Assembly (NCBI GenBank): GCA_002794735.1
Contig: NBAZ01000007.1
Span: forward strand, 1,240,001-1,304,000
From: Pyrrhoderma lamaoense
Lineage: Eukaryota > Basidiomycota > Agaricomycetes > Hymenochaetales > Hymenochaetaceae
Direction of reading: 5' to 3'
DNA length: 64,000 nucleotides
Below, in pieces: positions 5,637 through 54,055 of this stretch. Each line of letters begins with the position of its first letter. Positions within the stretch are counted from its first letter, which is position 1. Under the pieces are notes generated by a model. It did not search any database. It saw only the letters and a list, made by a program, of their open reading frames with translations, and had not been told where the DNA came from. Made by a program: the position numbers and the translations under genes.

Positions 5637-8600
5637 ATGAAACGAAAAACCTATCATCTCTATGGAGCGCTCGTGGCACTCTTTATCGCCTTTCTGCTCC
5701 TCTTTATAGCTTGTATATCTGTACCGTTCGCCCAGTCAGTCCGTCTATTTACCTTGAAAGATCACCGTACGGGAGGGTCGATCAGGTTCGGACTTTGGGG
5801 ATATTGTTTAACGTATGTTAATCGTCCTTTATTTTTCTCCCCGTTGATACGCTTCTGATTGAATTCCTTTCGTAACTACTATATTTATCAATCAATGATC
5901 TAGAAATGAATATGATGGTTACCCTCAATGTACCACGCCGGAAATTGGTTGGACATTTGATAATGTGTGAGTTTTTTTCTTGGAGTTAGAACTCGGTTTA
6001 ATATGAGATAAAACAAATGTCTGACATGACATATATTCTCCGCACAACAAGTCTTTCTTTGAGTGGCCTTGACGGAGCAATCTCTTCTTCATTAACTGGG
6101 ATATTAGTCTTCCACCCTTTGGTAAGTGAAAAGCCGTTGATGTATATGCGTTTATGCTTGTTTATAACAACACCTTTTTGTTGATATAATAATAATCACA
6201 CGATCATAATCTATGACAACAGTGACCGCATTGACTTTCGTCATTTTTCTTCTTTGCGGAGCTTTAACTCTAAAGCCATCTATACAACATTCTGCGGCCA
6301 TCAAACTCGGACCAAAGTTTTCAACTCTCTTTGTTCCAATTATACTGACTATTATAGCCGCGATCTTCACTACGATTGCATTTACTGTAGACGTAGTCGT
6401 TGTTAGCATCGTAAGGGCGCGTGTAGGAAAAGCCGCCCTTAACACAAAAAATTTCACAGCAGACGTCGGGACAATCGTGAGTAGTTTCCTTTAAAAAAGA
6501 ATATCTGATACTGATTAACGATGCTACATTCAACAGCCAGTTATTGTCTGTATCGCTGCACTAATTTTATGGATAATTACTATCGTATTATTCATATTCG
6601 ATATCAGGTATTCTCTATCAACTTTCTTCGTTAGAAAATTCAGCTATATGTTCTAACTTTTGAATAGGAACCGGAAGCAACGTCAACGAGATGATGCTGC
6701 ACAAGAGCAGCCATACAGTTACGTTTCCGACCATGAAGAGCCATCTCGAAGTCTGCTACAATCCGATCCGGGGGATCGTCAGCAGGATGTTTACTCAATG
6801 AGCACTATGGCTAACAGATCAAACAGCTCGTTTAGGTCGCGAATTAAAAGTGGGAGCATGCGCTCAAGAATAAGTGGGAGTCAGGTAACGGGTGCTGTGG
6901 ATGACGAGGGAGCGTGGCGTTCGCGGTCGGCTGAGTCCTTTGCATCAGTTCTTGACTCTTATCCACCTTCAGCAGAAAATAGAAACGTAGACCGGTATAT
7001 AACGGAGGAACACCCTCGTACTGTAGATTCTTACCCTCCAACTGAGAGGGGTTATTCAAGAGACCCAGAATCACCAGTATCCGCTAGATCGTTTGATTCG
7101 GAGTATGTTGAACCGGTGAGTGTTTGTGGGAGAGAACTCACGCCAGAGTACTCTCAGGATGTGTATGATGAAGAAGTTGAGCCTGATCGGGAGCCTGTCG
7201 TGGTTAGTAAAATAGAATTTTGATATTTTTATATCTACAAACTCATTAACTTATACAGGAAAGAAGTCTGACTCCCGGATACACTGAAAATGTAGACTAT
7301 ATTGAAGAACCGGTGCATTCGGATCCTCATTCCTACTACGAAGATGATTACAGGGATAGGTCCCTTACTCCACAAGAACCTGCTGAGGAATACATTTCAA
7401 ACTATGATGAATATCCCCTGAAGAAGCCACATGATGACCGTGCGTTGACGGAAGAGATTTATGATGAGGTCCCGCCATCAATTTCAGAAAGGGTATACAC
7501 TGAACAAGCTGACCCTCAATCATACTATGAGGATGAAGTAGGAGAAAGTCTCTTCCTCCCAGACACCTGTAGATGATTATGTTTCTCAGTACGATGAATA
7601 TCCTCCTGAGGAGGTTACAATGATCGTGCATTAACGGAGGACGTTTATGACGAAGTACCGCCTTCTAATAGAGATCTGACTCCTATCGAAGAGCGAGGCT
7701 ACACTGAGCAAGTCGAGCCAGAAGCTTATTATGAGGATGACGTAGTAGATAGATCTCTCTCCCCTCAGGAACCCGTTGACGAATACTATGACGAGTATCC
7801 CCCCGAAGAAGTTCCCAACGACCGTGCATTGACAGACGAATACTACGATGAGGTCCCCCCTGTAGTTGATCCCATTACGGAACGGGGTTACACCGAGCAG
7901 GTCGATCCTGAACCTTATTATGAGGATGAAGTGGTGGATAGATCCATCCCGCCACAAGAACCCGTTGATGAATACGTTTCGGAGTATGACGAATATCCTC
8001 CTGAGGAAGCTCCCAATGATCGAGCACTGACAGAAGACTATTATGATGAGGTTCCTCCTGCAGTCGATCCCATCACAGAACGGGGCTACACCGATCAAGC
8101 TGACCCCCAATCATACTACGAGGATGAAGTAGCAGAAAGATCACTTCCCCCCAGACGTCTGTAGATGATTACGTTTCTCAGTATGACGAACTCCTCCCGA
8201 AGAGGATATCAATGAACGTCCATTAACAGAGGACTATTATGAGGAGGTTCCCCCTGTAGCCGATCCCATTACGGAACGGGGTTACACCGAGCAGGTTGAT
8301 CCTGAACCTTCTTACTACGAGGATGAAGTGGTGGATGGATCCCTTCCCCCACAAGAGCCCGTTGATGAATACTATGACGAGTATCCTCCTGAGGAGGCTC
8401 CTAATGACCGTGCATTGACTGAAGACTATTATGACGAGGTTCCCCCGTAGTCGATCCTATATCGGAACGGGGCTATACTGAACAGGCTGATCCTCAGTCA
8501 TACTACGAAGATGATCTGGCGGACAGATCTCCTCCTCCTCCTCCAATAGATGACTATGTCTCTCAATACGATGAGTATCCGCCTGAAGAGGATATCGGCA

Positions 8601-11600
8601 ACCGTGCAATCACCGAGGACATATATGATGACGTCCCAGCGGAGATTCCACCAGAAAGGGTTTACACTGATCAGGGTATCTATGACGAAGAAGAACCAGT
8701 CTTGGAGGATCGTTATGAGAGTTTACCACCTGACCCTCAATCGTACTACGAAGATGACTTAAACAGGTCTATTACACCTCAAGCGCTTACAGATGATTAT
8801 GTTCCGGAGAACGTTCCTGAGGATAACTATAATGACCGTGGGTTCGACGAGGAGGTATATGACGATGTACCTCCTGAAATTCCACCTTCTCCCGCACCCT
8901 ATACGGAGCGAGGCTATACCGAACAGGAAGACCCTCAATCTTACTACGAAGATGAAGTGTTAGACAGGTCTCTTCCCCCAGAAGAGCCTATTGACGACTA
9001 TATCTCCGAATACCCTCCTGCTGAAGAGAATCCTGCTTTGACTGAGGTGTACGACGAAGCTCCAGAACAGATCCCTGAGGAGCCTGCACCGTTATCGGAA
9101 AGAGGCTTGACCGAGCAAAGTGATTTGGACGAGGGCCCACTTCCCGCCGAAGATGATCAATACGAAGAAGTTCCTCCTGCTCCTGCATCATACTACGAAG
9201 ATGATGTACAAGAAAATGTTCCCGAAGAGGACTTTGATGACCGTGGGCTGACTGAAGACGGATACGACGAAGCTCCTGAAGAAATCCCACCTTCCGCGGA
9301 ACCGGAACCCCTTACGGAGCGGGGAATCACCGAAGAAGTCTTTGAAGACGATCCACCACTTATCAATGATGTTGATCAGAGCGTACCAGATGAGTTTTAT
9401 GAAGAAGATCCACTTGAGGACCCTGAGGAAGAAGATCGAGCCTTGACGGAAGTTCAGGAACAGCAGCCATTGGAAACAATACCTGAAGAGTATACGGAGG
9501 AAGAACTTGCGGAAGAAGTACCGCCTTCTGAGCTACCACCAGATCAACCAGTGGTAGAATCGGTTTATGATGAGGAAGTACCATTATCGGCAGAGCCGGA
9601 AGGGCTTGATGATGATAGGGAATTGGAAGAAGAGCTTGAACCCCCTCTGACTGAGATCCCTCCTGAAGATATAGTGGAGGACGAAAGCTTACAGGAAGCT
9701 GAGCTGACGCCCGAGGGTAGCTTACAGCCTGAGTTGGAAGAAGAGGAAATTCCTATTGAAGAACTTGAGCCTGAGCCGGAACAGGAACAAGAGCTTCTTG
9801 ATGAAGTCACAAGCCCCGAACCCGAGATTACAGAATTTGTTGAGGAGAGTGGTCCAGAAGACCGTGATCTGGGTGAAGAAGGACTTGAGGAAATCGAGCC
9901 TGGGGAACTCGAGCCGCCTTTGACTGAACCCGTTGAGGAGCAGCCTGTCACCGAGGTATCTGATAGGGAACTGGAACCTGAAGAAGATATCGAGGGAGAG
10001 CCAGAGGAAATAGTAGAGGGAAGTGTTACTCCACTCGAAGAAGAGCTTGAAGGGGAGTCTAGGGAACCTTCGCAGTTTGAGGATGAAGTGCTCGACAGGA
10101 GTCTACCTGAAGATGACTTAGGGGAGGTTCCACCTGAAGAACCCGAGGAAGGACTTGAAGCCCCTTCACAGGTAGAAGAAGAGGTACTTGAAGAAGAGCC
10201 ACCCATCTCAAGGGACTTGGAAGAGGAGCTTGAGAACCCTTCACAATTTAGTGAGGAAGCACCTGAGGAAAACTCTTTCGTTGAGAACGAATTTGAGGAG
10301 GTCACGCCTAAAGGATCTGAAGAAATTGTGGACGGATCTGAGTACACTCCTGAAGAATTACACGAGGCTCGTGGACTAGACGGTGTCGAGGAAGATGTTC
10401 TTACCCCACAACAGGAGGAATTCTTGCCGGACTCGGTTGTAGAGGATGTCTCCTCCGGAGCCAGGTCCTTGGAAGGCGAAGATGGATCCCATCTCGAAGA
10501 AGATCCTGAAGAAGTAAAAGACCGTAACCGTTTGAGTACTATCTTGGAGGTTAGTGAAGAACCTACGATGAGCTCTCGTGGTTCAAGCGCCGCAGTCTCC
10601 GAGCTCAATGAAGACCCGTATACGCCTGAGGATCGAGAAGTTCTTGATGCTCTGGATGAAGCTCCGCTATCTGAACATGAGCAAGATCCAGAACTCACCC
10701 TTCAAGTCTTGAGCCAGAAGGAGTGACAGGCGGGATGACTTGACTCCATTGCTACTGAGTTTGCAGACGAGGGTCCAGATGCCGAGCTTGGTACTATAGA
10801 CCGTGACTTAAGCAACGACGATGCTAGACAAATATCCTTCGAACCGGGAAGCCTTGGAAAACTATCAACTGGAGATAAAAGCCTGTATTCAAGTGGAGCT
10901 GCAATATTCGGTGACGGCGAGTCTGTTTCGAATGAATCACAAGAACAAGAAGAGACAGAGCCGAAAGAGAATGAAGTTCCCTGGACACCTTTGAAAGATC
11001 GGTTGACCACAATTCCTGAAATCTCTGAGCTTGGTACAACTAGTTCTCTCGCCTTCAATAGCCAAGATCGATCTCTTACCCCCTTGAGTGGGGAACCGCT
11101 TATGTCTGAACCTGGAAATCGAGACCTGACTGAAATTGCGCCGGAAGAGTATGGATCAGAGCCTTTGCCAGCAGACGAGGAACCTATTGAGGATTCCTTT
11201 GTGGACTCTGTGCTGCAGGAGGAGGATCCCGGGACGCCTAGAGAGGACTCCTTAGATGACGCTTTGCCAGACGGGTCCATTGAGAGTAGTAGGATCGAAT
11301 CAGCAGTCCCAGCCAGTGATCTCAATTCACAAGAAAGGTCTTTGCAGCCGGAAGAATCTCTGTTAGAAGAGCTCGAAAATGAAGAACCAGAATCAGAAGA
11401 TGAAGTTCCCGCGGACTCAGAAGTTCAAGAGGAATATACTGATCTCGATCAAAGTCGGTCCCCACTTGAGGTTATACCTGAGGAGGAAGAATTACCTACT
11501 GAAGAAGGTGAACTATTAACTGAGGAAGGAACTCCACTTGAAGAAGATATCTCACAGGAAGAAGAAGTGCCACCTGAGCTGAGCCCGGAAGATGAATTAT

Positions 11601-14600
11601 CTCAAGAATTGTCCAGTGAACAGGCTCGGGAAGGACTATCTACCATTCACGAGGAGGAGGAACCACTGGACTCAAGGCTTGAAGAAGAAAGAGTGCTTTC
11701 TGAGGTAGAGGAACCCATAGAAGAAGGTTCGTTGGAGCCATCGCAAGTGGAAGAGCTCCAAACTCCTATTGAAGAAGAGGATGAGATCATCGATGAGATT
11801 CAACCTGAGGCATCCGAAATCATAGATGAAAATTCACAGGAAGATGAACAAGACCAAGAGCTCTCCATTCCCGAGGAACAATTGTCAGTGATACCGGAGG
11901 AGGAAGAACCACTTGTATCACAGGTGGGGGAACCATCCCAACTTGAATCTTACATCGAGGAAGAAGTACCGGAGGAGATTGAACCGGAGCCATCTAGCGT
12001 AGTACCTGACGGTGAAGATCGATCTCTCGAAGAAGTTGTCTCAGAAAATCCCGAGCTTGTTACCTCAGAAGAAAACTTGGATCCAATAGAAGAGATAACT
12101 CCTGAAGATGGACTGTCTACGATAGAGGAGGAACAGACTCTTGAACCCGAGCCTGAGCCTGAACTTCAGGACATAGCACCTTCCATTACTCCAGATTCTT
12201 ACCTAGATCCAGATGAGCCCACACAGGACGAATCCGGCGCTAGGTCCTTGACTCCCCAAGACGAGTACATCGAGGACGATCCGCTAATGGACGCCTTGCC
12301 CTCTCAGTCGAGAGGGCTAAGTGAACCAGATGCTTTGACTCCAGAGGCGTCAATTCCGGAGTCAATTTACGACGAGGCATCACTCGAACAAGTTGAAGAG
12401 ACTCCGCTTGTACCTGAGTCCATCATTCCTCAGAGTTTTGTAGAGGAAGACGGGGGAGTCGACTGCTCACCTGTATACGACAGTGAACTCCAAAGTCAGA
12501 TTGGGGAAAGGTCTGAATCTATTCATCCAGATTATGTTGATGAAGTGCCTTTGACAGAGGAACAACATGAGGGTGTTGAGGAATTGAGCCCCGTTCTTGA
12601 GCCTGAAAGCTTTGTAGATGATGCTCGAAGTATCACTCCAGAAGAATTCCTTGAAGAACCATCTGAGCTTCAGGATGAATTACCTACAGAGCCTTATGAA
12701 GAGCCTTATTCTGAACAAGAGCCTGTTTTATCTGAAAGAGACGGAGTGAATGATGAAGACAACTTGCCATCTGCTACACAATTCTACGAAGAGGAACCAC
12801 TCGAACCAGAACAGCTTTATGAAGAACAGTCCCTTGAACCAGAACGGACACTTGACGAAGAGGAGCCCTTTGAACCGTCCGCTTTGTATGAGGAACAACC
12901 TCTTGAGCAGGAACAATCGTTTGAACCATCTCAGTCGTACGAAGAACCTCTTGAGCAGGAGCAGCCGTACGAAGAGCAGCCCATTGAGCCGGAGGAACTA
13001 CTTTACGAGGAACCTGTCGAACCATCACTGTACGAAGAATCAGGGCAGTCCCTCGTACCACAACAGTCACTTTACGAGGAGGATCCGCTTGAACCGTCTG
13101 CATTGTACGAGGAGCCGCCTCTTGAAGAAGAAGCTCGTGAACCAGAACAAGTCTACGAAGAAGAACCTCTCGAACCAGAGCAATCATTCTACGAGGAAGA
13201 ACCTCTTCAACCATCGTCCCTTTACGAAGAACCAGAGCAGCTGATAGAACCGGGGCAATCGTTCTACGAAGAAGAGCCCCGTGAACCGGAGCAGCTTCTG
13301 GAAGAGCAACCTCTCGAACAGGGACGGTCTCTTTACGAGGGGGAACCCCTAGAGCCATCTGAGTTGTATGAGGAACAACCTCTTGAGCAGGATCAGCCTT
13401 ACGAAGAGCAGCCTCTTGAACCGGAGCAGCCATTCTACGAGGAGGAACCTCTTCAGCCATCCTCACTGTACGAGGAACCAGAACAGCTATATGAAGAGCA
13501 GCCAATAGAACCGGAGCAATCGTATTACGAAGAAGAGCAGCCCCTCGAACAGGATCGATCGCTTTACGAGGAGGAGCCCCTTGAACCGTCCGCAGTGTAT
13601 GAGGAGACACCTCTTGAACAAGAACAACCCCTTTATGATGGTTCTCTTGAACCGGAACAGCCGTATGAAGAGCAACCTCTCCAGCCGGAACAGTCAATAT
13701 ATGAAGAGGAACCTCTTCAACCATCATTGTACGAAGGATCAGAGCAGCTTCTCGAGCCTGAACAATCACTTTACGAGGAAGGACCTCTAGAACCATCAGC
13801 GTTGTACGAAGAGCCTGCCCTCGAGCAAGAGCAACCACTCTACGAAGAAGAACTCCGTGAGCCATCCCAACTATACGAGGAAGAGCCCCTTCAACCGAGG
13901 CAATCTTCTTACTATGAGGAGGAACCTCTCCAACCATCCTCCCTTTATGAGGAACCAGAGCAACTATATGAGGAGCAGCCGATAGAACCGGAGCAATCAT
14001 ATCTCGAAGAGGAACAACCTCTCGAACAGGGACGGTCGCTCTACGAGGAGGAACAACCTCTTGAACCGGAGCAGTCATTCTACGAGGAGGAACCTCTTCA
14101 GCCATCCTCACTATACGAAGAGCCAGAGCAGTTATATGAAGAGCAGCCTATAGAACCGGAGCAATCGTTCTACGAAGAAGAGCAACCCCTCGAACAGGGT
14201 CGTTCGCTTTACGAGGAGGAGCCCCTTGAACCATCTGCAGTGTACGAGGAGACACCCCTTGAACAAGAACAACCCCTCTATGAAGAATCCCTTGAACCGG
14301 AACAGCTGTATGAAGAGCAACCTCTCGAACCGGAACAATCGGTGTACGAAGAGGAGCCCCTTCAGCCATCCTCACTGTACGAAGAACCAGAACAGCTATA
14401 CGAAGAACGGCCCCTGGAGCCAGAGCAGTCGTTCTACGAAGAAGAGCCTTTTGAACCGGAGCAGTCACTTTATGAAGAGCAACCTCTTGAACCATCCCAA
14501 CTGTATGAAGAGGAGCCCTTCGAACCTAATAATGAACAACCTCTTGAACCGGAGCAGTCATTTTATGAAGATAGGTCCCTTCAGCCTTCCCCGCTGTACG

Positions 14601-17600
14601 AGGAGCCGGAACAATTGTATGAGGAGCAGCCTCTTGAAGAGGAACAACCACTCTATGAAGAAGAGCCCCTCCAGCCGTCTCCACTGTACGAAGAACCTGA
14701 GCAAATTTATGAAGAGGAACCCCTTCAACCATCTTCACTGTACGAGGAGCCAGAGCAACAGTATGAGGAGCAGCCCCTTGAGCCATCTGCGCTGTACGAA
14801 GAACCGGAGCAACTGTATGAACCGGGGCAGCAGTATGAAGAGGAGCCTTTATACGAAGAACCAGAACAACTGTATGAAGAGGAGCCTATTCAACCATCCC
14901 CGGTTTACGAGGAACCAGAACAGTTGTATGAGGAACAGCCTTATGATTCGGAGCAGGTCTATGAGCCGGAGCAGTCTTACGAACCAGAACAAGTATACGA
15001 AGAGGAGCCGTTATACGAGGAACCGGGACAGTTGTACGAACCGGAGCAGTCGTATGAACCAGAACAGGTGTACGAAGAGGAGCCGTTATATGAAGAACCA
15101 AAAGAGCTGTACGAAGAGGAGCCTATTCAGCCATCCGCGCTTTACGAAGAACCAGAGCAGTTGTATGAAGAAGAGCCTCTATACGAAGAACCAGAGCAGC
15201 TGTATGAGCCAGAACAGCAATACGAAGAGTCCCTTCAGCCATCTCCTCTATACGAAGAACCGGAACAGTTTTACGAGGAACAGCCGTATGATTCGGATCA
15301 ATTGTACGAACCGGAACAGTCTTATGAACCGGAACAGCTGTATGAACCAGAACAGCAGTACGAAGAGGAGCCTATCCAGCCATCCGCACTTTACGAAGAA
15401 CCAGAGCAGTTGTACGAGGAACAGCCATATGACTCAGATCAATTGTACGAACCAGAGCAATCATATGAACCAGAACAAGTGTACGAAGAGGAGCCACTAT
15501 ACGAAGAACCGGAACAGTTGTACGAACCAGAACAATTGTATGAAGAAGAGCCTCTTTACGAAGAACCAGAGCAGCTGTATGAGCCAGAACAGCAATACGA
15601 AGAGTCCCTTCAGCCATCTCCTCTATACGAAGAACCGGAACAGTTTTACGAGGAACAGCCGTATGATTCGGATCAATTGTACGAACCGGAACAGTCTTAT
15701 GAACCGGAACAGCTGTATGAGCCAGAACAGCAGTATGAGCCAGAACAGCAGTACGAAGAGGAGCCTATCCAGCCATCCGCACTTTACGAAGAACCAGAAC
15801 AACTGTACGAAGAGGAACCTATTCAGCCATCCGCGCTTTACGAAGAACCAGAGCAGTTGTATGAGGAACAGCCATATGACTCAGATCAATTGTACGAACC
15901 AGAGCAGTCGTATGAACCAGAACAAGTGTACGAAGAGGAGCCACTATACGAAGAACCGGAACAGTTGTACGAACCAGAACAATTGTATGAAGAAGAGCCT
16001 CTTTACGAAGAACCAGAGCAGCTGTACGAAGAGGAGCCTATTCAGCCATCCGCGCTTTACGAAGAACCAGAGCATGTATGAGAGACTCTATACGAAGAAC
16101 AGAGCAGTTGTATGAGGAACAGCCATATGACTCAGATCAATTGTACGAACCAGAGCAGTCGTATGAACCAGAACAGGTGTACGAAGAGGAGCCGTTATAT
16201 GAGGAACCGGAACAATTGTACGAGCCAGAGCAATTGTATGAAGAAGAACCTCTGTACGAAGAACCGGAACAACAATATGAACCGGAACAGCTGTATGAAG
16301 ACCCAGAACAGTTGTACGAGGAACAACCATATGATTCGGAGCAGTTATACGAACCGGAACAATTGTATGAACCAGAGCAGTCTTATGAACCAGAACAGCC
16401 TTATGATCCAGATCAGTTGTATGAAGAGGAGCCTCAATATGCACCAGAGCAACTGTATGAAGAGGAGCCTCAGTACGAACCAGAACAACTGTACGAAGAG
16501 GAGCCGCTATACGAGGAACCGGTAGACGAGCCAGAGCAACTTTATGAACCGGAACAACTCTATGAACCGGAGCCTCAATATGATCAAGAGCAGTCCTATG
16601 AACCAGAGCAATTATACGGTGAGGAGCCATATGGACTAGAGCAGTCTTATGAACCGGAGCAGCCCTATGATCCAGATCAGTTATATGAAGAGGAACCACA
16701 ATACGAACAAGAACAAGTATATGAACCAGAACAAAATTATGAACCGGATCAGTTGTACGAAGAACAGCAATACGAACCAGAGCAATTGTACGAAGAGGAA
16801 CCCACAGAACAAGAGCAGTTATATGAACAATCTTATGAACCGGAAAACTTATACGAGCAAGAACCTGGAGAAGTATATCCTGAGGAATACAACGAAAGGC
16901 TTCCTGAAGACTCTCAAGCAACAAACATAGCTGAAAATGATGCTTTCCCATATGAAAGTGATAATCAGGGCGAGGGGTATGAAGAAGCACCCCAAGCATA
17001 TGCTCCTGAGGAGGAGAACCAGTTTGAAGAAATCCCTCTAGAAGAGAACTACCTTGAAGAGGAACCCGAGGAAGAGAACTACTATGAAGAGGATCCACGA
17101 GAAATTATTGAGCAATATGAGCCTGGAGAGGATATACTTGACGACCCCTTGTTGGATGATTATTATGAACATCCTCCCAATCCCAATGAACCCGTTGAAG
17201 ATGTAGAAGATGAATATGCGTATCATCCTGTTGAAGGGGAGAGCCAGGATCCCATACAACATGAAGGACCTTTTGAAGAGAACTCAGAAGAGTATGAGAC
17301 AGAAATCCCGCAAGATAGAGATCAATTAGACGAAGATCTTGCAGCTGCACTACCACAACAGCAGGATGAGTACGATTCATATGACTCTGCTGTTCCAGGC
17401 TCTTCTGTTGAGACCCAGATGGCTTCAAATGATATATTCTCATATGCTTCAGAAGAAGATGTATACGAGCCTATAGTAGATGAAATTAGAGAGGGTGTTG
17501 TTGAAGAGGAAGTGGTAGAAGGTAGAGCTCTTTACAATCATTGTGCTTCATTTCCTGAATTACTGATTTTCTGTTTTTATAGCTTGTGAGAGTTGTGGAT

Positions 17601-17764
17601 CAGTGCACCCGGGCTTCGTGCCCATGGAAAACAATAGTAGTGCATTCAGGTCCATATTTGCTGATACTCTTACAGGGGAAATGAACGAAATTCCACAGAT
17701 ATGTGATCGTTGTGGAGCCTACATATTCACAAATTATACTAATCCTCAACAAGTGGATTCTTAG
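5637..17764 (+). CDS. palI: PalI/Rim9-like membrane protein with giant acidic repeat tail and C-terminal zinc ribbon
   Basis: PalI/Rim9 proteins are four-helix, claudin-like plasma-membrane partners of the ambient-pH sensor PalH/Rim21. Eight exons are supported (5637-5812, 5904-5966, 6052-6121, 6223-6476, 6537-6607, 6668-7202, 7259-17521, 17583-17764). Exons 1-5 give TM1, the extracellular signature FGLWGYC with a second Cys in YPQC, then TM2-TM4 ending LILWIITIVLFIFDI. Everything after exon 5 is a cytosolic tail: a Ser/Arg/Glu linker; 63-68-residue repeats (about 7,480-8,930) with YTEQ, SYYEDE and NDRALTED; a long Glu-rich part with recurring RSLTP; a YEEP/EQLYEP tandem array (12,780-16,870); an acidic spacer; and a final exon with CESCG and CDRCG. 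If frame is continuous the protein is about 3,870 residues, far longer than the few hundred usual in the family. Frame is broken at about 7,555-7,615, 8,155-8,450, 10,724-10,738 and 16,075-16,110, and a base seems missing at the exon 3/4 junction. Pathway role is inferred from the membrane domain only. Confidence 0.85.
7480..8930 (+). repeat. tandem repeat, 63-68 residue unit, palI tail
   Basis: Seven to eight consecutive copies of a unit whose TAC/TAT codon of YTEQ (or YTDQ) falls at 7496, 7700, 7889, 8087, 8283, 8474, 8663 and 8915, so spacing is 189-204 nt for most copies. Each unit reads roughly YTEQ-DP-SYYEDEV-DRSLPP-DEY-YPPEE-NDRALTED-YDEVPP. Copies differ at many synonymous and some coding positions, so this array is older than the YEEP array downstream. 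Several copies contain one-base gaps that break the frame. Confidence 0.85.
12778..16870 (+). repeat. YEEP/EPEQ short tandem repeat array, palI tail
   Basis: About 4.1 kb coding for some 1,360 residues built from 6-8 residue elements such as EEPLEP, SLYEEPEQ, LYEEQP, SYEPEQ and QPYDSDQ. Units combine into higher-order blocks. In the last third copies are nearly identical at the DNA level: one block at about 15,196 recurs at 15,571 (375 nt later), and another at 15,435 recurs at 15,882 (447 nt later), pointing to recent unequal exchange. The composition also creates long spurious reading frames on both strands. Confidence 0.9.
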
Positions 17765-18106: not shown

Positions 18107-20585
18107 TTAACTGATACTTTTGGTCACCGTGTTTTTGGGTGGGACTCGCAGCCCTTTTGCCTTCATTTGTCGACGTTTGTTGGCTTTTGAACACAACCAT
18201 TAGCGTACTCATCGTATGAGCATATTGTACCGGACTATATACTTACCTTCGAGGAAAGGCTGATCTTCTTCTTCATCGAATTTGATGTCGTCTTCAATTA
18301 TCGACTCATCCTTTTTATCCGTTTTATCTGGTTTAGTCTTCATCTTCACCTCGACTTCTACATCTGATTTCTTCGGACCCTTTTTTGGCTTTCCAACCTT
18401 GAGTTTCGCGACGAAAAACCCATCCATGTTATGTACATGAGGATAAAAACGTCTTGTCAGTTTCACACTCGGATCGAATACCTTCCCACGGAAGCTAGTA
18501 AAGCCCTCACGTCCAAACGCAAGACCAGTATCTAAGAGCTCGACATGAGGTCGTTTACGTAATGCGTAATCGATAACTGCTTCGTTTTCGTCAACCGTAA
18601 CGGAACAAGTAGAATAAACAACTATTCCCGGGGAGGTAGCCGAAGCGGGGGTGACACTATCGATTGCACAGAGGATAAGTTGTTTTTGAAGGTGGGAAAG
18701 TAAGGCAAAATCACGAGCGGTCTGTGTCATAAGGAGCAAGGTGAGATAACAGCTTGTATTGTCCACTTATTGCAACAGGTTTCACCTTGTTAACTTTAAC
18801 ACTCGCATCTTTGCTTATAACACCCGTTCCACTACATGGAGCATCAAGTAGAACCCGGTCAAACCCTCCAAGAACCTTTGGGAATTCTCGACCATCGTAG
18901 TTACATACAACAACGTTTTTGCACCCAAGCCTATGTACGTTAGCAATCAAACTCTTTATTCGAGCCTTGTTCGCATCATTAGCAAAGACAACACCCGTAT
19001 TCTGCATCAATGCAGACACATAAGTTGATTTCCCCCAGGAGCTGAAGCCATGTCGAGAACTCGTTCATTTGGCTCAGGGGAAAGAGCCATGACGGGTAAG
19101 AATGATGACGGTGCTTGAAGCATGTAGTGACCTGCAAGGTACTCTGGAGTTGCACCAACTGGAACCGCAGATTCGAATATTTGGAGACCAACATTCGTCC
19201 ATTTCCCTATCGGCTCAAGTGAGACTCCTCTAGCGATAAGGGCCTGAGCAAGATCCTTTCGTCGCGTTCGTAAAGTATTGGTTCTTATTGTTACAGGTCG
19301 CGGAAGCTCATTAGACTCGAAGAATTCGATAGCCTGTTAATTTCATAATGTCAGATGAAACCTAGTCTAGCCAGACCTTGACTGGATTAAGTCTCATACC
19401 TCAAGAACAGGGAATAACTGAAATAACTTCTCCACAAGAAAATCATTGTAGCCATAGTAGCTCGCAATGTCAGCTAGTAGTTGTTCAACATACTCTGACC
19501 GAGACCTACAATACCATGAGTCTACTAGATATTTAAAGATAAAAATAAGATATTAAACCTGTCTTTAGCTCCAAGTCGTTTGAAATTTGAAAGTACACGA
19601 GCACAGTGTTTCATCCTACGATGCACCATATTCAAATCCTGAGCTCCCGTTTTCCGTTCTTCTTCACGTTCTTCAGCGGTAGGAAGCACAAGTCCATCGC
19701 CATCGCCTTCTCCCGCCTCATCCATATCTACATCATTTTCTCCTACCACTTCATCATCGTCTGATCCTTGAGCAAGTGCTGCTTGTCGCAGCTCTTCAGC
19801 ATCAAGTTCAGCGTCAAGGATTGCCTTTTCATCCAAAGCACGCGCTCGGGCCTCGAAGTTAGCCGCAGTTATGCGTTCCTCATCTGAATCTTCATTTGAA
19901 CTCGATTCTGAATCCGATTCTGTATCCTTGGATGCCTTAGAAGGTTTTCTTGGGAGTTTTATTTGCGCTTTCTTCGGAGAAACGTTTGATTCGTCACTAT
20001 CTGAAGAACCTAAATCTAGTTCCTGAGCATCCCATTCTACCATAATAATGAATTCAGTATAGTATTTTATTCAAAATAGTTAGAGGGAATAGTGTTAGAC
20101 TCACTGGGATAGAGAAGCTAGGAGTAAACAGGGATTACTTTATACAGCGTGGTAACGATATATGCACAAAAACTTACTCATCATCTTCCCCACTCAAGTC
20201 ACCTAAGTCGCCGACAAACCCAGACTTTTCTTCGTCACTATCATCGAAGAGTGTTCTGAAGTTATAAAGATTGTGAATTGTCGTTATATCAGAATAACAT
20301 CAGTACACACCTCTTTTCTGCATTGAGACCCTCCTCATCTTCTACATCATCCCAGCCGCTACCTTCCCCTTCACTATCATAATCTTTTAATTCCTTCCTT
20401 TCGACCTTTCCCAACTTGTTCCGCGAATTCCTCGAGGAGACACTCTCCTTGGCTTTCACTTTCTTCGAAGGTCTAGTATCATGGACTGGCTCTTGCTTTC
20501 GCTTACCAAGCTTTTTGTCAGAGAGAGATGCTCTCTCAAGTAGTGGTTCTGGGGCTGCTTGCTTGTTTTTCGCGCGACGACCCAT
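18107..20585 (-). CDS. NOP2: Nop2, 25S rRNA (cytosine-C5) methyltransferase
   Basis: Nucleolar m5C methyltransferase needed for 60S subunit assembly. Starts [14 protein letters not shown] at 20585, followed by a Lys-rich then Asp/Glu/Ser-rich N-terminus. The conserved core includes [22 protein letters not shown], the SAM loop DMASAPGG, then DAPCSGTGV (motif IV) and [12 protein letters not shown] (motif VI) with the two cysteines used by this family. The last exon is joined by a 63-nt intron with a clear CTAAT branch site and ends [16 protein letters not shown], stop at 18107-18109. Just after the SAM loop the frame needs one more base (T run on the plus strand at 19029-19031). The junction to the exon starting [10 protein letters not shown] near 20,035 is also one base off. 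Since the gene is essential I take both as sequence errors. It diverges from the eL8 gene. Confidence 0.93.
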
Positions 20586-26675: not shown

Positions 26676-29588
26676 ATGAATAAACCCGAGCCGCTTTCGA
26701 TCGAGTCTTTACTTGAGAAGCAAAGAGCAGAGAGAGAAGCTGCATCAAAGGCTAGTATCTACTACACTATACAATGTTAACATATCTTAACATGCTTATT
26801 CTATAGCCAAAGTTTCTAACTAAGGAGGAACGTGCAAAGATTGCTATTGCTAAACGAGCTCAAGAAATCAAAGAGCAAAAAGAGAAAGAAGAATCTCAAA
26901 AGAGGGATCGTGAAAGGCTCGAACGAGAGGCGGAAGAAATCCGCGCAAGAGAAAGAGCGGAGGAGGGAAGAAGCAGGTATGGCAGAGGCAGTCGATGTCA
27001 GTGAACAATCATCTCATCTTCTTTTAGATTACGTAGTAACATTGTGACTTTTATCTATAACAGATGACGACAGAAACATAGACAGGGAAAGGGATAGGCA
27101 TGGTGGTCGACGTGGAGGGAGGAAAGGAGATAGAGACAACTATAGAGACAGAGATGGTCCACCTTCGTCATCGTCTGCACCTATTAATGCCCCCTCAGGA
27201 CCCAGAGCAGACAGAGAAAGAAACTCTTCTACCCCTTCGTCTTCAGCTATGCCCCCTCCTCCCCCGCCACAAAATAGCACTAGTACTTCCGCAATTGCTG
27301 ATACATCTACGAACTTCGTTCCCCAAATGAATGATAGTGACCTGAATGCCATTCGCTCTCGTTACCTGGGTGTCGACAAAAAGAAACGGAAGATCCGAAA
27401 AATGAATGACCGCAAGTTTGTTTTCGATTGGGACGAACAAGATGATACACTAGTAGAAGATTCACCTACAGCTGCGGGTGCAAATAGACAAGGTGCTCAA
27501 ATCATGTTTGGACGTGGGCATCTAGCCGGGATGGATGATGGAGGTTCTGTAAGAAGAAGCTCAGGAGCTGGTGAAGCGAAATTCTCCGATGTCTTGGAGA
27601 GGAGAAAAGCTGCAAAATCTGGAATTGACGAGCGTCATTGGACCGAGAAGCCGTTAAGTGAGATGAAGGAAAGGGATTGGCGTATCTTTCGGGAAGATTT
27701 CAGCATTGCCGCAAGAGGTTGGTATATTTACTACTGTGAGAGAGTATCGATTGACTGATAACTGATAACCTGGACTCTTAGGTGGACAGATTCCTCACCC
27801 ACTTCGCTCATGGGTTGAATCTGATATTCCCCAGCCAATTCTGGATGTTATTGAGAAAGTAGGCTATAAGGAACCATCGCCCATCCAAAGGCAGGCAATT
27901 CCCATAGGTTTACAGAACCGCGATCTTATCGGAATAGCTGAGACAGGTCAGGGGAATTTCTTGGTTATACTTCCTACTCTTTTAATACTCATGCTACTAT
28001 TATAGGATCTGGGAAGACGGCGGCTTTTGTCATCCCAATGTTGACTTATATCTCCAACTTGCCTCCTCTTTCGGATGACAACCGGCACTTAGGACCGTAC
28101 TCGCTGATTCTAGCGCCTACTCGCGAATTGGCACAACAAATTGAGTCGGAGACGCGTAAATTTGCAGCGCCTTTAGGATTCCGATGTGTCTCTATTGTTG
28201 GTGGAGTATGTTAAATTAAATTATCTGTGCTATTTTCTTTCGTTAATGACTCATTCTTCCCAAAATAGCGTGCAGTTGAGGAACAACAATTCAACCTCCG
28301 AGAAGGAGCTGAGATCATCATAGCAACACCGGGTCGGTTGAAAGATGTAATTGAACGCCATGTTATTGTGCTCTCGCAATGTTCATACATTGTTATGGAT
28401 GAAGCTGATCGGATGGTGAACCTCGGTTTTGAAGTTGATCTCACGTTCATTCTTGACAAACTCCCCAACGAGACTTTGAAGGGAGAGGATGAAGGTATGA
28501 TGATGGATATTGACGGTGAACTGATTCGTAAGGGGAGAACACGAGTTACAACTCTATTCTCTGCGACGATGCCTCCAGCGGTTGAAAGGTTGACACGAAA
28601 GTACCTAAAGAAGCCCGCTATTGTGACCATTGGTGAGGCTGGTCGGGCCGTTGATACAGTCGAACAGCGCGTTGAGTTTATAAGTGGAGACGAAAAGAAG
28701 AAGTTCGTTTTTTACTTTTCCCCGAATATGTACAACGTGGCTGATTCCGCTTACTATTTTCTAGACAACGCATGATTGATATTCTCCATAACGATGGATT
28801 CCCAGCTCCGATAATTGTGTTCGTTAACCAGAAGAAGACAGCCGACATGGTTTGTAAAGACATTCAACGTGCTGGGGTTCGTGTCTTTAACATTTTATTT
28901 TACGTATTGTTTTTGATTTGTCTTTTGCGCTATGTTTTGTCTATTTTTAGTTACGCGCTACTACATTACACTCAGGTAAAAATCAAGAGCAGCGTGAAGC
29001 CGCCTTGCAGTCCTTACGGAATGGTGATTCTGAAATTCTTGTGGCTACGGATCTTGCGGGTCGTGGTATCGATGTGCAGGATGTCAGTTTGGTCATCAAT
29101 TACCAAATGGCTAACACAATTGAAGCTTATGTACATCGTATCGGTAAGATGACAATTCATTTCGCCAGCGCTAAAGGTTGAGATAGATGAGCTTATTTGG
29201 CTTCTTAGGTCGTACTGGTCGTGCTGGAAAAGTCGGTACCGCCATAACCTTCCTTACCAACGATGACGATGAGGTTATGTACGACCTTCGGCAAGGTTAG
29301 TACTTTTTTCTGTGCCGCTAGTTTGATCTTCTCAAGATCTTCTGATGTTAAATTTAATAGAAATCTCGAAGAGTCCAGTCTCAAAGGTCCCGCCGGAATT
29401 AGCGAAACACGAGGTCCGTATCCTGTTTTAGCTTTACTTATTCTCTTAAAATTTCTTTTTTACTTCCGGGAACCTGTGACACTGACTTTTTCTTACTCAA
29501 ACACCGTTTCCAATTCTCACTACAGGCTGCACAAACCCGTGTATCACGAGAAATGAAGAGGAAGCGGGATGCAGAGGATCAGGGCTGA
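26676..29588 (+). CDS. PRP28: Prp28, DEAD-box pre-mRNA splicing helicase
   Basis: ATP-dependent RNA helicase that swaps U1 for U6 at the 5' splice site. Starts [20 protein letters not shown]; a Lys/Arg/Glu-rich N-terminal arm is followed by [19 protein letters not shown] and [11 protein letters not shown], typical of Prp28. All helicase motifs are seen: AETGSGKT (I), PTRELA (Ia), TPGR (Ib), DEAD (II), SAT (III), [10 protein letters not shown] (V) and YVHRIGRTGRAG (VI). The C-terminus ends [15 protein letters not shown] at 29586-29588. The reading frame is intact across about ten exons. Two introns use a GTTCGT donor, near 28,699 and 28,877; only with those donors do the flanking segments read KKQRMIDIL and [11 protein letters not shown] in frame. 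Confidence 0.95.
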
Positions 29589-35728: not shown

Positions 35729-38700
35729 ATGCTTTCAGCAAAACAAATGGAGCCCGTCGCGGTCACCTTCCCGTCGGTGTCTCCCCTCTGCTCACATGCT
35801 CCAGTGCATGAACAGACCCCAGCGGCTGGCACCGCAAACAGTGAGCAGTGTAATGTCCTTACCACCGCAGCAGTCCCGTCTTTTCCGTCAAGTGGTCCGC
35901 CACGTTCTCCATCCAAAAGTATCCTCGCCGAAGATACTCCATTGACTGAATCGCAAAGCCGTTCCTCTCTCTCGTCGGAGCAGTCATCGAATCGTAGAGT
36001 AGCTTCTCAATCGAATTTGCTTGCTGTTCCTGAAGTGGATGATCAGAATCGTGCACTAGAGGACAAGGTAGGTCTACTCTTTATTCATTTGCACTTCACA
36101 AAGCCCGTATGTTTTGGATTGCACACCCATTCGCTCTCGCTTATTTTGTTCCTTCTGTCATTGCGACTTATGTCATCTCCCACCTTACATTGCGTGCCCC
36201 GTTGCATCTTGGTATTAAATTCACACTTCTTTCTACTAGGCACCGTCCAATCCCTCCCGTTCCCGCAATTTGTCTATATCTCTTCCCGCCTCCCCTCCTA
36301 CTCTGTCTCCCTCAGCCCCGCTCTCTCCTGCTTCTCTGACGCCCGCCGAGCAGCCGACCACAAGCCCTTCAAGGCCTGCCCGTCCGCCTCGGCGGCGTAG
36401 CCTCTTCGGGTTCAACTCCCGTTTTCCCAATCTGCAGATAACTCACCTCCAGGGGAGCAAGCAGGAGTTCCAGCTTCATCATCTGAAACTAGTATGGCGT
36501 CCTCTTCTACTGTTACAGTGAAGCAACAGAAGCAATTTGGACCATTACATGAGCTTAAGCGTTTCTTAAATCATCATATTCAACATAGTAGTCAAGGACA
36601 CCACATACTTCCCCATCACCACCGTGCAGCTTCGTCTTCATCCTCCGGTAATAACTCAAAGGGAGGTTCAAAAATACAAACACCCGCGGAACCACACGAG
36701 ACACCCGCAAACCAAGTGCGTGGTTCAGAGTACCAAAATACTGAGATCCACGTCGATGGCGGTGATACGCCTCAACAACGTCCGTTACCTATGTCGAATG
36801 ACTCTCCGTACAGCAAGCACGAGCGTAGAAATTCTAGACATCGTATTGTTTCGGCCTTATCTCGGAAGGATGTCACAAACGTTTCCAATGAGAAGATAAG
36901 TGATAAAGATATTCCCGTGACGCAAAACGCCGTTCGGCACGCAAAGGGTAGACCTGACGATAGCTCAGTCATCGATGAGTCCGCTTCTGTCGAATCAGCA
37001 CGAAAAACCAGGTCATCTGGGTCAACTAGTGCATCACACAAAGGGAATGTACCCGCATCTAATTCTGGGCGAGATTCGCCCTCAGAATCTGGACACAGCA
37101 TTATCAGTATTCATCTACATAATGCATTTCACCCCTCAGACAAACATCATCATGCACAGAATACTCATGGCCATAACCCTATACTATCCCTTTCAGATGC
37201 CACGCAAGCACATTTGTCAAAGAAGTATGGGAAATGGGGCCGTGTTCTAGGCTCTGGAGCTGGTGGAACCGTACGCCTGATCAAGGCTTCGAATAAGAAT
37301 GGCGGTCGTATATACGCTGTAAAGGAGTTCCGTCCAAGGCGTACTAATGAATCTGAAAAGGACTATGAAAAGAAGGTCACTGCCGAGTTCTGTGTAGGCA
37401 GCACTTTGCATCATCCTAACATTATCGAGACTGTAGACATTGTTAGCGATCATGGCCATTATTATGAGGTTAGTGCAAATTATCCTGAATCTATTCTTAG
37501 CATTGCCTAATTTGGCATGATCACTTCTTTTCTTGTCCACTAGGTCATGGAATATGCACCATTTGACCTTTTCACCGTGGTCATGTCCGGGAAGATGATT
37601 AGACCTGAGATCTATTGTATATTTCGCCAAATATGTGACGGTGTCGAATACCTGCACTCGATGGGCTTGGCACACAGGGACCTGAAACTCGATAATTGTG
37701 TAATGACCGAGGGCAACGTTGTCAAGCTCATTGATTTCGGTACGGCAACTGTCTTTCATTACCCTGGGAAACAGCAGATCAAAGCTACTGGTGTCGTTGG
37801 CTCAGATCCATATCTCGCGCCGGAAGTACTCAGTGATGAAAGCTATGACCCTCGAAAGACAGACGTCTGGAGTGTTGCTATGATTTTCCTTTGCATGATT
37901 CTGAGGCGGTTCCCTTGGAAACTTCCAGACCCCAAAGTTGATCCAATTTCCGTAGCTTTATTAATTCTCACCCCGACCTATGTGTAAAGCCTACACCGAA
38001 GAAAGAAACTGCTAGCAAAGGACTAAAAGAGGCAGGTGTCTTGCGTAAAACTTCTCGTTCTGCTAGTGGCGGGTCCGCGGACATAGACTCAAGTGTCGCG
38101 TCATCTGATACTTATGGGTCATCATTATTGGCTCATAGTGATGCTGGCTCAGTAACAAGTGTATCCACCTCGGAATCTAGAAGTGGCTCTAGTAGTAGTG
38201 ATGATGCACGTTCAATGTTCAAGAACAAATACCTTGACGCTCAAGCTCATTATCCTCATGGTTCTATTACCACTCTTCCGGCAATGCTTGTCCAGATGAA
38301 CTTATCTCTCAAATTGATAGCCCGCGTGAGCTTGATCAATCTGATTTGCGATTTGCTCGCCCTTCCGAGATGACTGAGTCTGCACCGGCGTCGCCTGTTC
38401 TGCAGCCAAGGAAGTTTGATGGTCCTCCAATGGATGACCCATCGACATGTACCCTAACACCTCCACTTGCAACGCCTAAAGCGGAGCGTCCGCCACCTCG
38501 TTCGTCTTCTACTCCCATCACACCATCGACAAACTCACCTTCAACAATTCGTCGTGCACCATGGCAAGATACTAGCCCGACCCAAGGCCCACTGCGGTCA
38601 ACGGAAGTGAGGGTGTCTCGCACGTTCGCAAGAGGACAGATAGTGTCGTGACGACTGCAAATGGCGGAGCTGATTCTATCTTCAAATTACTCCCCGAGAG

Positions 38701-51347: not shown

Positions 51348-54055
51348 TCACTCGCTCTCATCATCTCCTTCACTGCCTTCATCGTTGTCATCATCTTCTT
51401 CACTTTCACTTTGGGCATTAAGCTGTTCAATCATTTTGCTTCCGACTGTCCAGCACCTGTGCATATTTTCTGCCGCAGCACCTTCGCCAAGTCCTCGTGA
51501 CTCCGGCATGGCGTGCCACGCTCGGATATCGTCTTCTTCCACAATGTCGCTTTGATACAAGGCAGCCAAGATCTGGCCGAATATACCAAGGTGAGAGGAT
51601 TGAGCACAATGCTCCTGTGTAATGTAAAGAAAACATCAGCATGCTGTCTCCTGAAACATTACATGGCTTTGAAAAAGTAAAGAAGGTAAAATAAATTGTA
51701 AAATCAAGCTCTGCGAGGCTGGAAGAAGAAAGATGAAGTACAAGACACCTTTACTAACCTGTAATACGGCAACAGTCTCCACAGCATCCGCGCCACCAAT
51801 CAAATTTATGAGTTCTCCCCAACGCTTTATTACTTTTGCTATTTCTGCTCTTTGCCTCGCCGGTGAATCATTAATGAGTGGTATAAGATCCACTATACCG
51901 GCTACAACAGCTTCTCGCACACGACGAAGTGGCACATTGCTTGCCATCCGGAGCGTTTTGAGCTCCACAGCGGCGTTGTCAACGCTATGATCCTCTGAAA
52001 AGGCACGGGCAAGTGAGGCTGATACTTCAGTTTGGAATTCACGTTCTGCCTGAGCATCTGCAAGTAGTGAAACAGAAACACTCGACAAACCGGTACCATC
52101 ATGGAAGATGTTAGATGCGGATTTGCTAAGAGAAAGACCCAGGACATTATCGAATTCCTCTTCAGAGTCCTCCGAACTTTCAGACTCAGATGAGGTAATT
52201 GATCCACGGTCGGATAGATCAAGATCAGACGCATTATCACCTGTAAAGTGCATAAGTACCTAAGACACAAAAACAACGAGAAGACTTCTAACCTAAACGA
52301 AGTAATCGTTGATTGATGCGCTCGTTTGCTTCGTCTTCATCTTCATCAGAGTCTGGAGGATTATCTGGCCATAAAATTCCGTTCGATTCCACCCCGAGAC
52401 ATGCTCGAAGTTCATCCGTTTGTGCTGTAATAAATGCCGCGTATTGAATACTAGAACCAAGAATCGTCGAGTATAGATAATAATTTACCAGCTTCTGCAT
52501 CTTCATAATCTGAGTCCTCTTCCTCTTCTTCTCCTTCCTCAGTAAGCGGGCCTCTTTTCTTGGAGACCTTTGTCAGTTTGCGTAAATGTGCATCCGGACC
52601 TATGATCACACCATCTGCAATTAGGCATCCACGTTCCACTCGCGAACCGCGTAATACAGTAACATTTTTCCCGAGAACACTGCCTTCAATCACTGCACCT
52701 TCTTCTACACGAACTCCATCCCATAAATAACTATCTAAAACGACCACGCCTTGTTCAAGCACACAGTTCGTACCAAGAACAGAACCTGACACACGAGCAT
52801 CTGATGCGATAGATGATCCCGGTCCAAGTAAAGTCATGGGTCCCACATGAGAAGCACGCGCGAGATGAGGGGGGTTCTCAGTCGAAAGGTATCTATTACC
52901 CCGAGAATGATCGTAGGATGTTGTAACAGAACCAGGATGATTGTCGTCTGGTACAAGGGGGAACGTCCATCTAGATAGGATATCTTTGCTAACTGAGGCA
53001 TAACTTTTTGTATCTTTGACACGGGCCGCATATCCATCAGTTATTACATGACAATGTATATTTTTCATGAGGAGATCGGAGGTCAAGACACCCTGAACGA
53101 AATCACTTCGAATGTCCTGATAGTCGAAATTATCCTGAATAGTGATGGGACCTATTTTTATGCATCAAGTTACTCTCCATATTCATAATATGGCTGCAGA
53201 AGTATACGTACCTCTACCGAGCAGATATCGATACCACAGTCAATGAGGTCATTTCGGATTTCGAGGTCTGCATGTTTAGCGAGAATCTCTCGAGGTATAT
53301 GCGCAAGAGGTTGCGGTGGATATCCTTTGACAGGTTCGTAATGCAAGCATTCCTGGGTTTTTGAATCAACGACAAAGATAGCGGTTTCCCCACGAGGTCT
53401 GAGTGATATTTATTAAGTGATTCGATGATAAACGACGAATAAAGTAACAAAATCGGAAGGTGTGAGCAACTCACCTCGTTCTATGATTTACCCCAGACTC
53501 TTTCACAACCATGGTCATAATTATATCTCGGTTAGAGCGTCGACGTTCCTTGTGTAGCTTAACAACTTCATCTATCCGTACGTTGCTTACGAGGTCGCCT
53601 TGGACGAGGACAAAGTCTGAGGAGATTATACCATGTGTGTAGATATCACGCATGGCATCTCCTGGAGAGAATGCTTCTTTTGCAGTCACAATTGGAGTAA
53701 TTTTAATACCCGTATTTGGTCGAGACCATTTTGAGTTTCTAGATATTTACATCCAGAAGTTCAATAATATGCTAAAATTGAGCGGAGAAGACAGTGGCGT
53801 ACGCAATAGCTGCCTTCACCTTTTCAGCATGTGAACGGCAAACAACGAAGATTTCTTTTACGCCAGCAAGTGCTAGACTCTCAAAAGTCCAATCAAGCAG
53901 GGGAGCGTTGCACACTGGCAGAAGGCATCGGGGCTTGTTAGTAGTTAGCGGCTTAAAACGATTGTTAAAGCTGTCTGCGAGAATGACGGCTTGAAGAACG
54001 TCCTCTTCCTCGCCCGCTCCGAATGTATTATCTTCCCGGTTGCCTTTGGACCCAT
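51348..54055 (-). CDS. GCD6: eIF2B epsilon, catalytic subunit of the eIF2 guanine-nucleotide exchange factor
   Basis: Recycles eIF2-GDP to eIF2-GTP for translation initiation. N-terminal nucleotidyltransferase-like domain: EEEDVLQAVILADSFNNRF, KPLTTNKPRCLLPVCNAPLL, VLVQGDLVSNV. Then LIDCGIDICS, DIRSDFVQGVLTSDLLMKNI, and hexapeptide left-handed helix sequence such as GSSIASDARVSGSVLG and GAVIEGSVLGKNVTVLRGS. An acidic linker (GEEEEEDSDYEDAEA) leads to the C-terminal W2/HEAT domain with VIKRWGELINLIGGADAV and the acidic-aromatic end ESEEDDDNDEGSEGDDESE, stop at 51348-51350. The start is set at ATG 54053-54055, which would give MGPKGNRE if one base is restored at 54048-54049; no other in-frame ATG precedes the conserved part. 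About nine exons. Confidence 0.92.

Follow-up and report, generated by a model that had tools for sequence, protein, structure and literature searches.

A predicted eight-exon gene on the forward strand of Pyrrhoderma lamaoense DNA, spanning positions 5637-17764 of the window (the whole 64,000-nucleotide stretch analysed, C7:1240001-1304000), joins a SUR7/PalI membrane module to an acidic, repeat-rich tail of 3,562 residues and a short C-terminal exon bearing two CxxCG motifs. The best reading of this architecture, held tentatively and with somewhat less than even confidence, is a flexible two-ended tether similar to the leashin of ascomycetes, with a membrane anchor fused on. The exon model rests on GT/AG splice sites, every one of them predicted, and the full chain computed from it has ~3,830 residues, a mass of 445 kDa and a pI of ~4. 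The features, in window coordinates, are:

5637..5812, forward strand: exon 1, predicted first transmembrane helix (a hydropathy peak) and the FGLWGYC loop
5904..5966, forward strand: exon 2, first loop with its second Cys
6052..6121, forward strand: exon 3, whose join to exon 4 needs either a frame change or a weaker donor 4 bases downstream
6223..6476, forward strand: exon 4, second and third transmembrane helices predicted from hydropathy
6537..6607, forward strand: exon 5, fourth transmembrane helix predicted from hydropathy
6668..7202, forward strand: exon 6, start of the tail, 179 residues
7259..17521, forward strand: exon 7, acidic Pro/Tyr/Gln-rich tail, ~3,380 codons with five frame breaks inside
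7259..9000 (approximate limits), forward strand: repeat family 1, unit of ~66 residues or 198 bases
13000..16900 (approximate limits), forward strand: repeat family 2, YEEPEQ/YEEEP/QPSxLYEE units
17522..17582, forward strand: predicted last intron, GTAGAG...TTTATAG, 61 bases
17583..17764, forward strand: exon 8, the last 60 residues, containing CESCG and CDRCG (predicted zinc knuckles), and the stop

The product of exons 1-5, queried with one residue typed in at the exon 3/4 join, matches the Pfam family SUR7/PalI (PF06687) over residues 12-199 with an E value of 4.2e-15 and a score of 56.4 bits, above the gathering cut-off of 29.6. Four hydropathy peaks are found at residues 11-29, 97-115, 139-157 and 190-208, and the first loop is the Cys-containing FGLWGYC...C, as is typical of the family. 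The PalI membrane module of FGLWGYC and four helices described in an earlier note on this DNA is therefore upheld. What is common to this protein and to family members such as Sur7 and Rim9/PalI is the four-helix module with its LWGYC loop; what differs is the strongly acidic tail of ~3,560 residues.

Summed over its open pieces, the tail consists of 26.4% Glu, 13.3% Pro, 8.4% Leu, 7.9% Gln, 7.9% Tyr, 7.2% Asp and 4.4% Val, with Lys at 0.3%. Its 1,194 acidic and 108 basic residues give a net charge of about -1086 (NCPR about -0.31); the first 300 residues are 23% acidic, and only 15 Lys/Arg occur in the final 1,500. Charge-hydropathy analysis places the tail on the disordered side and no stretch resembles a transmembrane segment, such that this giant polyanion would be expected to be disordered. 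Two tandem-repeat families are present, one with a ~66-residue unit at ~7.3-9 kb and one consisting of YEEPEQ, YEEEP and QPSxLYEE units at ~13-16.9 kb, while the tandem-repeat search lists nothing in the acidic part between them. The description of an acidic tail of ~3,600 residues with two tandem-repeat families thus proved accurate, and the tail does follow the module, although it begins in a separate exon (exon 6, 6668-7202). None of three tail pieces matched a Pfam family, and 667 tail residues searched against the genome, with 9 candidates scored, had no match other than themselves at E <= 0.001.

That the tail carries a coding signal beyond chance is confirmed by two observations. When repeat copies from four stretches were compared, using pairs selected on nucleotide identity and on spacing in phase, pN/pS in the read frame was 0.33 (4 pairs), 0.19 (330), 0.24 (23) and 0.14 (9), values drawn from overlapping, non-independent pairs and, in two of the four stretches, from fewer than 10 of them; the other two frames gave 1.10-2.56. 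Most differences between the copies are thus synonymous, and this in the read frame only. Furthermore, the open tail pieces contain 3,383 stop-free codons, 1,714 of which are one substitution from a stop, a count that bears on substitutions and not on indels, as the pieces were cut at the frame breaks, where stops occur in the shifted frames.

Exon 8, which follows a 61-base intron, is predicted to add 60 residues containing CESCG and CDRCG, and was not mentioned in the earlier note, nor was the intron. This is the sole CxxCG pair within ~55 residues among all open frames of the window, and an open frame with at least two CxxC motifs arose in 4 of 20,000 dinucleotide shuffles. The two CxxC knuckles of a zinc ribbon are both present, and the motif is the sole basis for predicting zinc binding. 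Exon 8 matched no Pfam family above the cut-off, a sequence search of the PDB returned one match with an E value of only 0.92, a single-sequence fold model had low confidence (pLDDT 51), and a genome search at E <= 1 found only the exon itself.

Relatives were sought in several ways. When the module was scored against 5,606 candidates of ~379-1,206 residues at E <= 1e-3, one match was found: the 972-residue Coniferiporia weirii protein M0805_006061 (P0001), whose module is 51% identical over 187 aligned residues and which also has a long repetitive tail. This tail, taken from a gene model that may be incomplete, has 757 residues, is 18% Ser, has a net charge of -73 and an NCPR of -0.10, against -0.31 here, and contains no CxxC. 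Residues 409-766 of P0001 comprise its own, unrelated repeat of 89-90 residues, equal-length units of which are 71% and 78% identical, and the tails of the two species have no convincing sequence in common (best E 0.044). Long repetitive tails are thus present in both gene models, whereas the extreme charge and the knuckles have so far been seen once; among related basidiomycetes, the one relative found has a tail that is repetitive, but far less acidic and without the knuckles. A search at the length of the whole gene (~2,080-6,630 residues), in which only exon 4 was scored, gave nothing at E <= 0.01 among 17 candidates. One using the module plus the C-terminal exon (7,560 candidates of ~612-1,948 residues) gave nothing at E <= 10 and also missed P0001, the positive control; homologues of ~1,200-2,080 or <379 residues, and separate proteins with the C-terminal exon, fall outside the informative searches.

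Within the genome itself (30.65 Mb, 72 contigs), the PF06687 profile gave nine matches at eight places, none of them in the window owing to the short exons there. Frames of at least 80 residues were listed for eight regions, namely seven of these eight places (all except C2:0.166 Mb) and a weak match at C8:0.317 Mb; none resembled this tail, their acidic fractions being 0.01-0.21. Apart from the module's own exons, a search with the module protein picked up C1:3.212 Mb at 29% identity (E 1.5e-5), two pieces of C3:0.280 Mb at 29% and 31% identity (E 6.7e-4 and 0.007, respectively) and the weak match on C8 just mentioned (E 0.09). Among the titles and opening lines of abstracts listed, no SUR7/PalI protein with an acidic repeat tail was found, nor did any appear among those listed for septal pore caps, for disordered tethers at basidiomycete septa, or for SUR7/PalI proteins with claudins or eisosomes, although absence is not proven by these surveys.

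Under the tether reading, the SUR7/PalI module would anchor the protein at the plasma membrane, the charge of the tail would keep that tail disordered and extended, and the knuckles at the C-terminus would engage a cytoplasmic partner. In favour of this reading are the family match of the module, the charge and predicted disorder of the tail, the selection indicated by pN/pS, the CxxCG pair and the likeness to leashin, together with the dependence of yeast Sur7 on its cytosolic C-terminus (PMC10702824). Length would set the reach: simple polymer scaling for an unstretched chain gives an end-to-end distance of ~67-168 nm, with a contour of ~1.28 um, and this reach of ~70-170 nm may be set beside the 100-200 nm reported for Woronin bodies tethered by leashin. 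The septal pore rim or hyphal cortex would be the first candidate site. Counting against this reading, neither the extreme charge nor the knuckles were seen in C. weirii, the sole relative found, a zinc-ribbon fold was not supported by the single-sequence model or by the Pfam and PDB searches, and the frame breaks described below could reflect decay.

The foremost rival, possible but on balance doubtful, is that the tail acts locally as a polyanion, forming a charged brush that shapes or crowds a membrane domain or retains basic proteins or cations, without a second end that binds specifically. The net charge and the scarcity of Lys/Arg towards the C-terminus would suit such a role, as would the divergence from the C. 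weirii tail, which is expected if only bulk matters. There is also a precedent in the family: the available text of one report describes the cytosolic C-terminus of yeast Sur7 as necessary for function, shaping membrane domains and affecting membrane topography (PMC10702824). By contrast, that the C-terminal exon is distinct hints at a second functional end, and the low pN/pS values point to selection on residues, although selection on composition alone could give the same result.

Alternatively, the tail could be a decaying or fast-drifting repeat expansion of little function, a reading which is unlikely but is raised by the frame being broken at six places and by the lack of conservation with C. 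weirii. One of these breaks falls where exon 3 meets exon 4; the other five are in the tail, at ~7.55-7.62, 8.15-8.19, 8.44, 10.71-10.76 and 16.07-16.10 kb. Compared with neighbouring repeat copies, those at 7.6, 8.2, 8.4 and 16.1 kb resemble small base losses; the break at 10.7 kb has no good repeat copy for comparison. In two repeat copies the frame is lost at one and the same homologous position, which could be caused either by the copying of a real change, as decay would have it, or by a sequence-specific error. At the exon 3/4 join, the alternative is the weaker donor four bases on, which adds a residue, but a frame change is favoured because the module with one typed residue, the version that was aligned, matches the C. 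weirii protein there without gaps. By eye, 10,706-10,759 could be read as a 54-base in-frame intron, but its donor is weak and a repeat-like coding motif crosses it in a neighbouring frame, making this less likely; the stretches at ~7.54-7.59 and 8.13-8.19 kb have intron-like ends by eye, yet frame breaks persist downstream of both.

While such breaks could mean decay, conserved genes in this assembly break in a similar manner. As a control, the families Cpn60/TCP1, HSP70 and RsmB-F were sought across this genome, and one additional NOP2 piece was placed; the first two had been picked beforehand as conserved families, and RsmB-F because its NOP2 case was noticed first. To be counted, a join had to link consecutive matched pieces no more than 400 bases and 25 profile positions apart (for Cpn60/TCP1, one of the 21 skips a short piece), and 10 of 33 changed frame with no space for an intron: 4/21 in Cpn60/TCP1, 5/9 in HSP70 and 1/3 in RsmB-F. 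Eight of the ten fit a loss of exactly one base, and the remaining two were shifts of +2 and +17. The assembly thus looks unpolished, with single-base losses being common, and as conserved genes break likewise, the same origin is most likely for the breaks in this gene. The stop-free open pieces of the tail also argue against decay.

Individual frame changes of this kind can be located. The next gene in the window, at ~19,030, encodes a NOP2-like methyltransferase with a frame change at 19,020-19,095 (minus strand), inside the conserved domain and with no space for an intron, where Pfam pieces 1-22 and 21-106 abut in two frames. Chaperonin and HSP70 genes have intronless breaks, mostly with one base missing, at C1:3672-3673.8 kb, C2:319.4 kb and C3:310 kb, and further sites at C3:1058.9 kb, C7:657.9 kb and C7:809.9 kb.

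The earlier note described known PalI/Rim9 proteins as partners of the pH sensor. On that view the protein would be a Rim9/PalI-type helper of the ambient-pH sensor with an overgrown tail, a moderate one of a few hundred residues not being matched by the 3,562 residues and NCPR of -0.305 found here. This reading, which is weak and draws on the family name, remains improbable despite the SUR7/PalI match and the FGLWGYC motif of the first loop. Ascomycete PalI starts in the manner of MKPATP, as does another locus in this genome, the SUR7/PalI gene at C1:3.21 Mb, which has no acidic tail. Downstream frames in that region (C1:3206500-3213500) are Ser/Tyr/Gly-rich. Published evidence, from the available portions of two papers, is divided: a triple mutant of all three SUR7/PalI proteins in Cryptococcus neoformans is described as wild type for Rim101-dependent phenotypes, and elements of the membrane complex as missing or dispensable in Ustilago maydis (PMC4393102), whereas a later paper counts Rim9/PalI as conserved in basidiomycetes (PMC11481519). 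The normal Rim101 phenotypes leave the link to the pH sensor unsupported. Neither PalH nor Pil1 was matched in genome searches in which no control gave a signal.

A pair of adjacent genes, one for a SUR7/PalI protein that ends at ~7.2 kb and another for the acidic repeats, is highly improbable, since RxLTP motifs flank intron 6, acidic residues already abound in exon 6, and exon 7 keeps the frame across an intron whose ends are consensus-like. A separate gene start inside the tail was likewise rejected on the grounds of composition and frame; the predicted reading frame passes through 8.7 kb and 10.9 kb, where new starts had been contemplated. Of the proposal that the same gene runs for ~11 kb almost uninterrupted, the single composition-consistent frame stands, but not its continuity, given the five breaks in the tail. 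Elsewhere in the window, open frames at 27048-27755, 36401-37507, 52454-53164 and 61194-62039 match DDX23-like, protein kinase, EIF2B epsilon and RhoGEF domains, respectively, and 6 of 10 neighbouring frames scanned had no domain match.

For the tether reading, the closest working analogue is ascomycete leashin. The available text on the Neurospora crassa protein predicts it to be the largest of that genome, at 10,821 residues from a locus of two transcription units, with acidic repeats in which Pro, Leu, Asp and Glu abound, a charge calculated as -1088, and conserved ends flanking a poorly conserved linker; its authors drew a comparison with PEVK and proposed an elastic tether, the length of which may set spacing, Woronin bodies in most Pezizomycotina being tethered at 100-200 nm (PMC2690989). 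The tail described here is likewise a giant linker of acidic, Pro/Leu/Glu-rich tandem repeats with a nearly equal charge and a poorly conserved sequence, and membrane attachment and binding parts at both ends, proposed here, would be common to the two. Their arrangement differs: in the accessible parts of the relevant reports, Lah, of which a membrane-spanning segment is required for septal targeting in Aspergillus fumigatus (PMC5345055), has one such C-terminal segment and binds a separate Woronin body membrane protein, WSC, whereas here the N-terminus carries a fused four-helix module of the SUR7/PalI type. In addition, the tail here is Tyr/Gln-rich, and the likeness is physical, with no sequence relation claimed. 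As leashin and Woronin body genes are reported to be Pezizomycotina-specific in the available text of PMC10023807, the cargo here would be something else.

A bolder version, which is rather unlikely, would make the protein a basidiomycete counterpart of leashin that arose by convergent evolution: a tetraspan anchor, an entropic polyanionic spring and a zinc-knuckle hook, all within a single chain of ~3,830 residues that would tether a structure at the hyphal cortex or septum of a fungus expected to be without Woronin bodies. Were this true, a common membrane family would have become a giant elastic leash independently of leashin, at nearly equal bulk charge, and a physical rule, namely the charge and length needed by a cellular tether, could be put to the test. 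It would also offer a starting point for learning what is kept in position at the septum or cortex in this fungal group, and would move basidiomycete SUR7/PalI proteins further from their namesake pH pathway.

The PEVK region of titin is Pro/Glu-rich, expected to be disordered and extensible, and also Lys- and Val-rich. The first of these properties is found in the tail and the second expected of it, but with Lys at 0.3% and Val at 4.4% it is a polyanion and not a polyampholyte, and it is attached to a membrane module. Even for Lah, parallels with titin were termed speculative in the available text of a later note (PMC5745230). Of the elastic, PEVK-like tether put forward in the earlier note, the tether or spacer thus stays the best option, while the likeness to PEVK is loose and leashin appears the nearer comparison.
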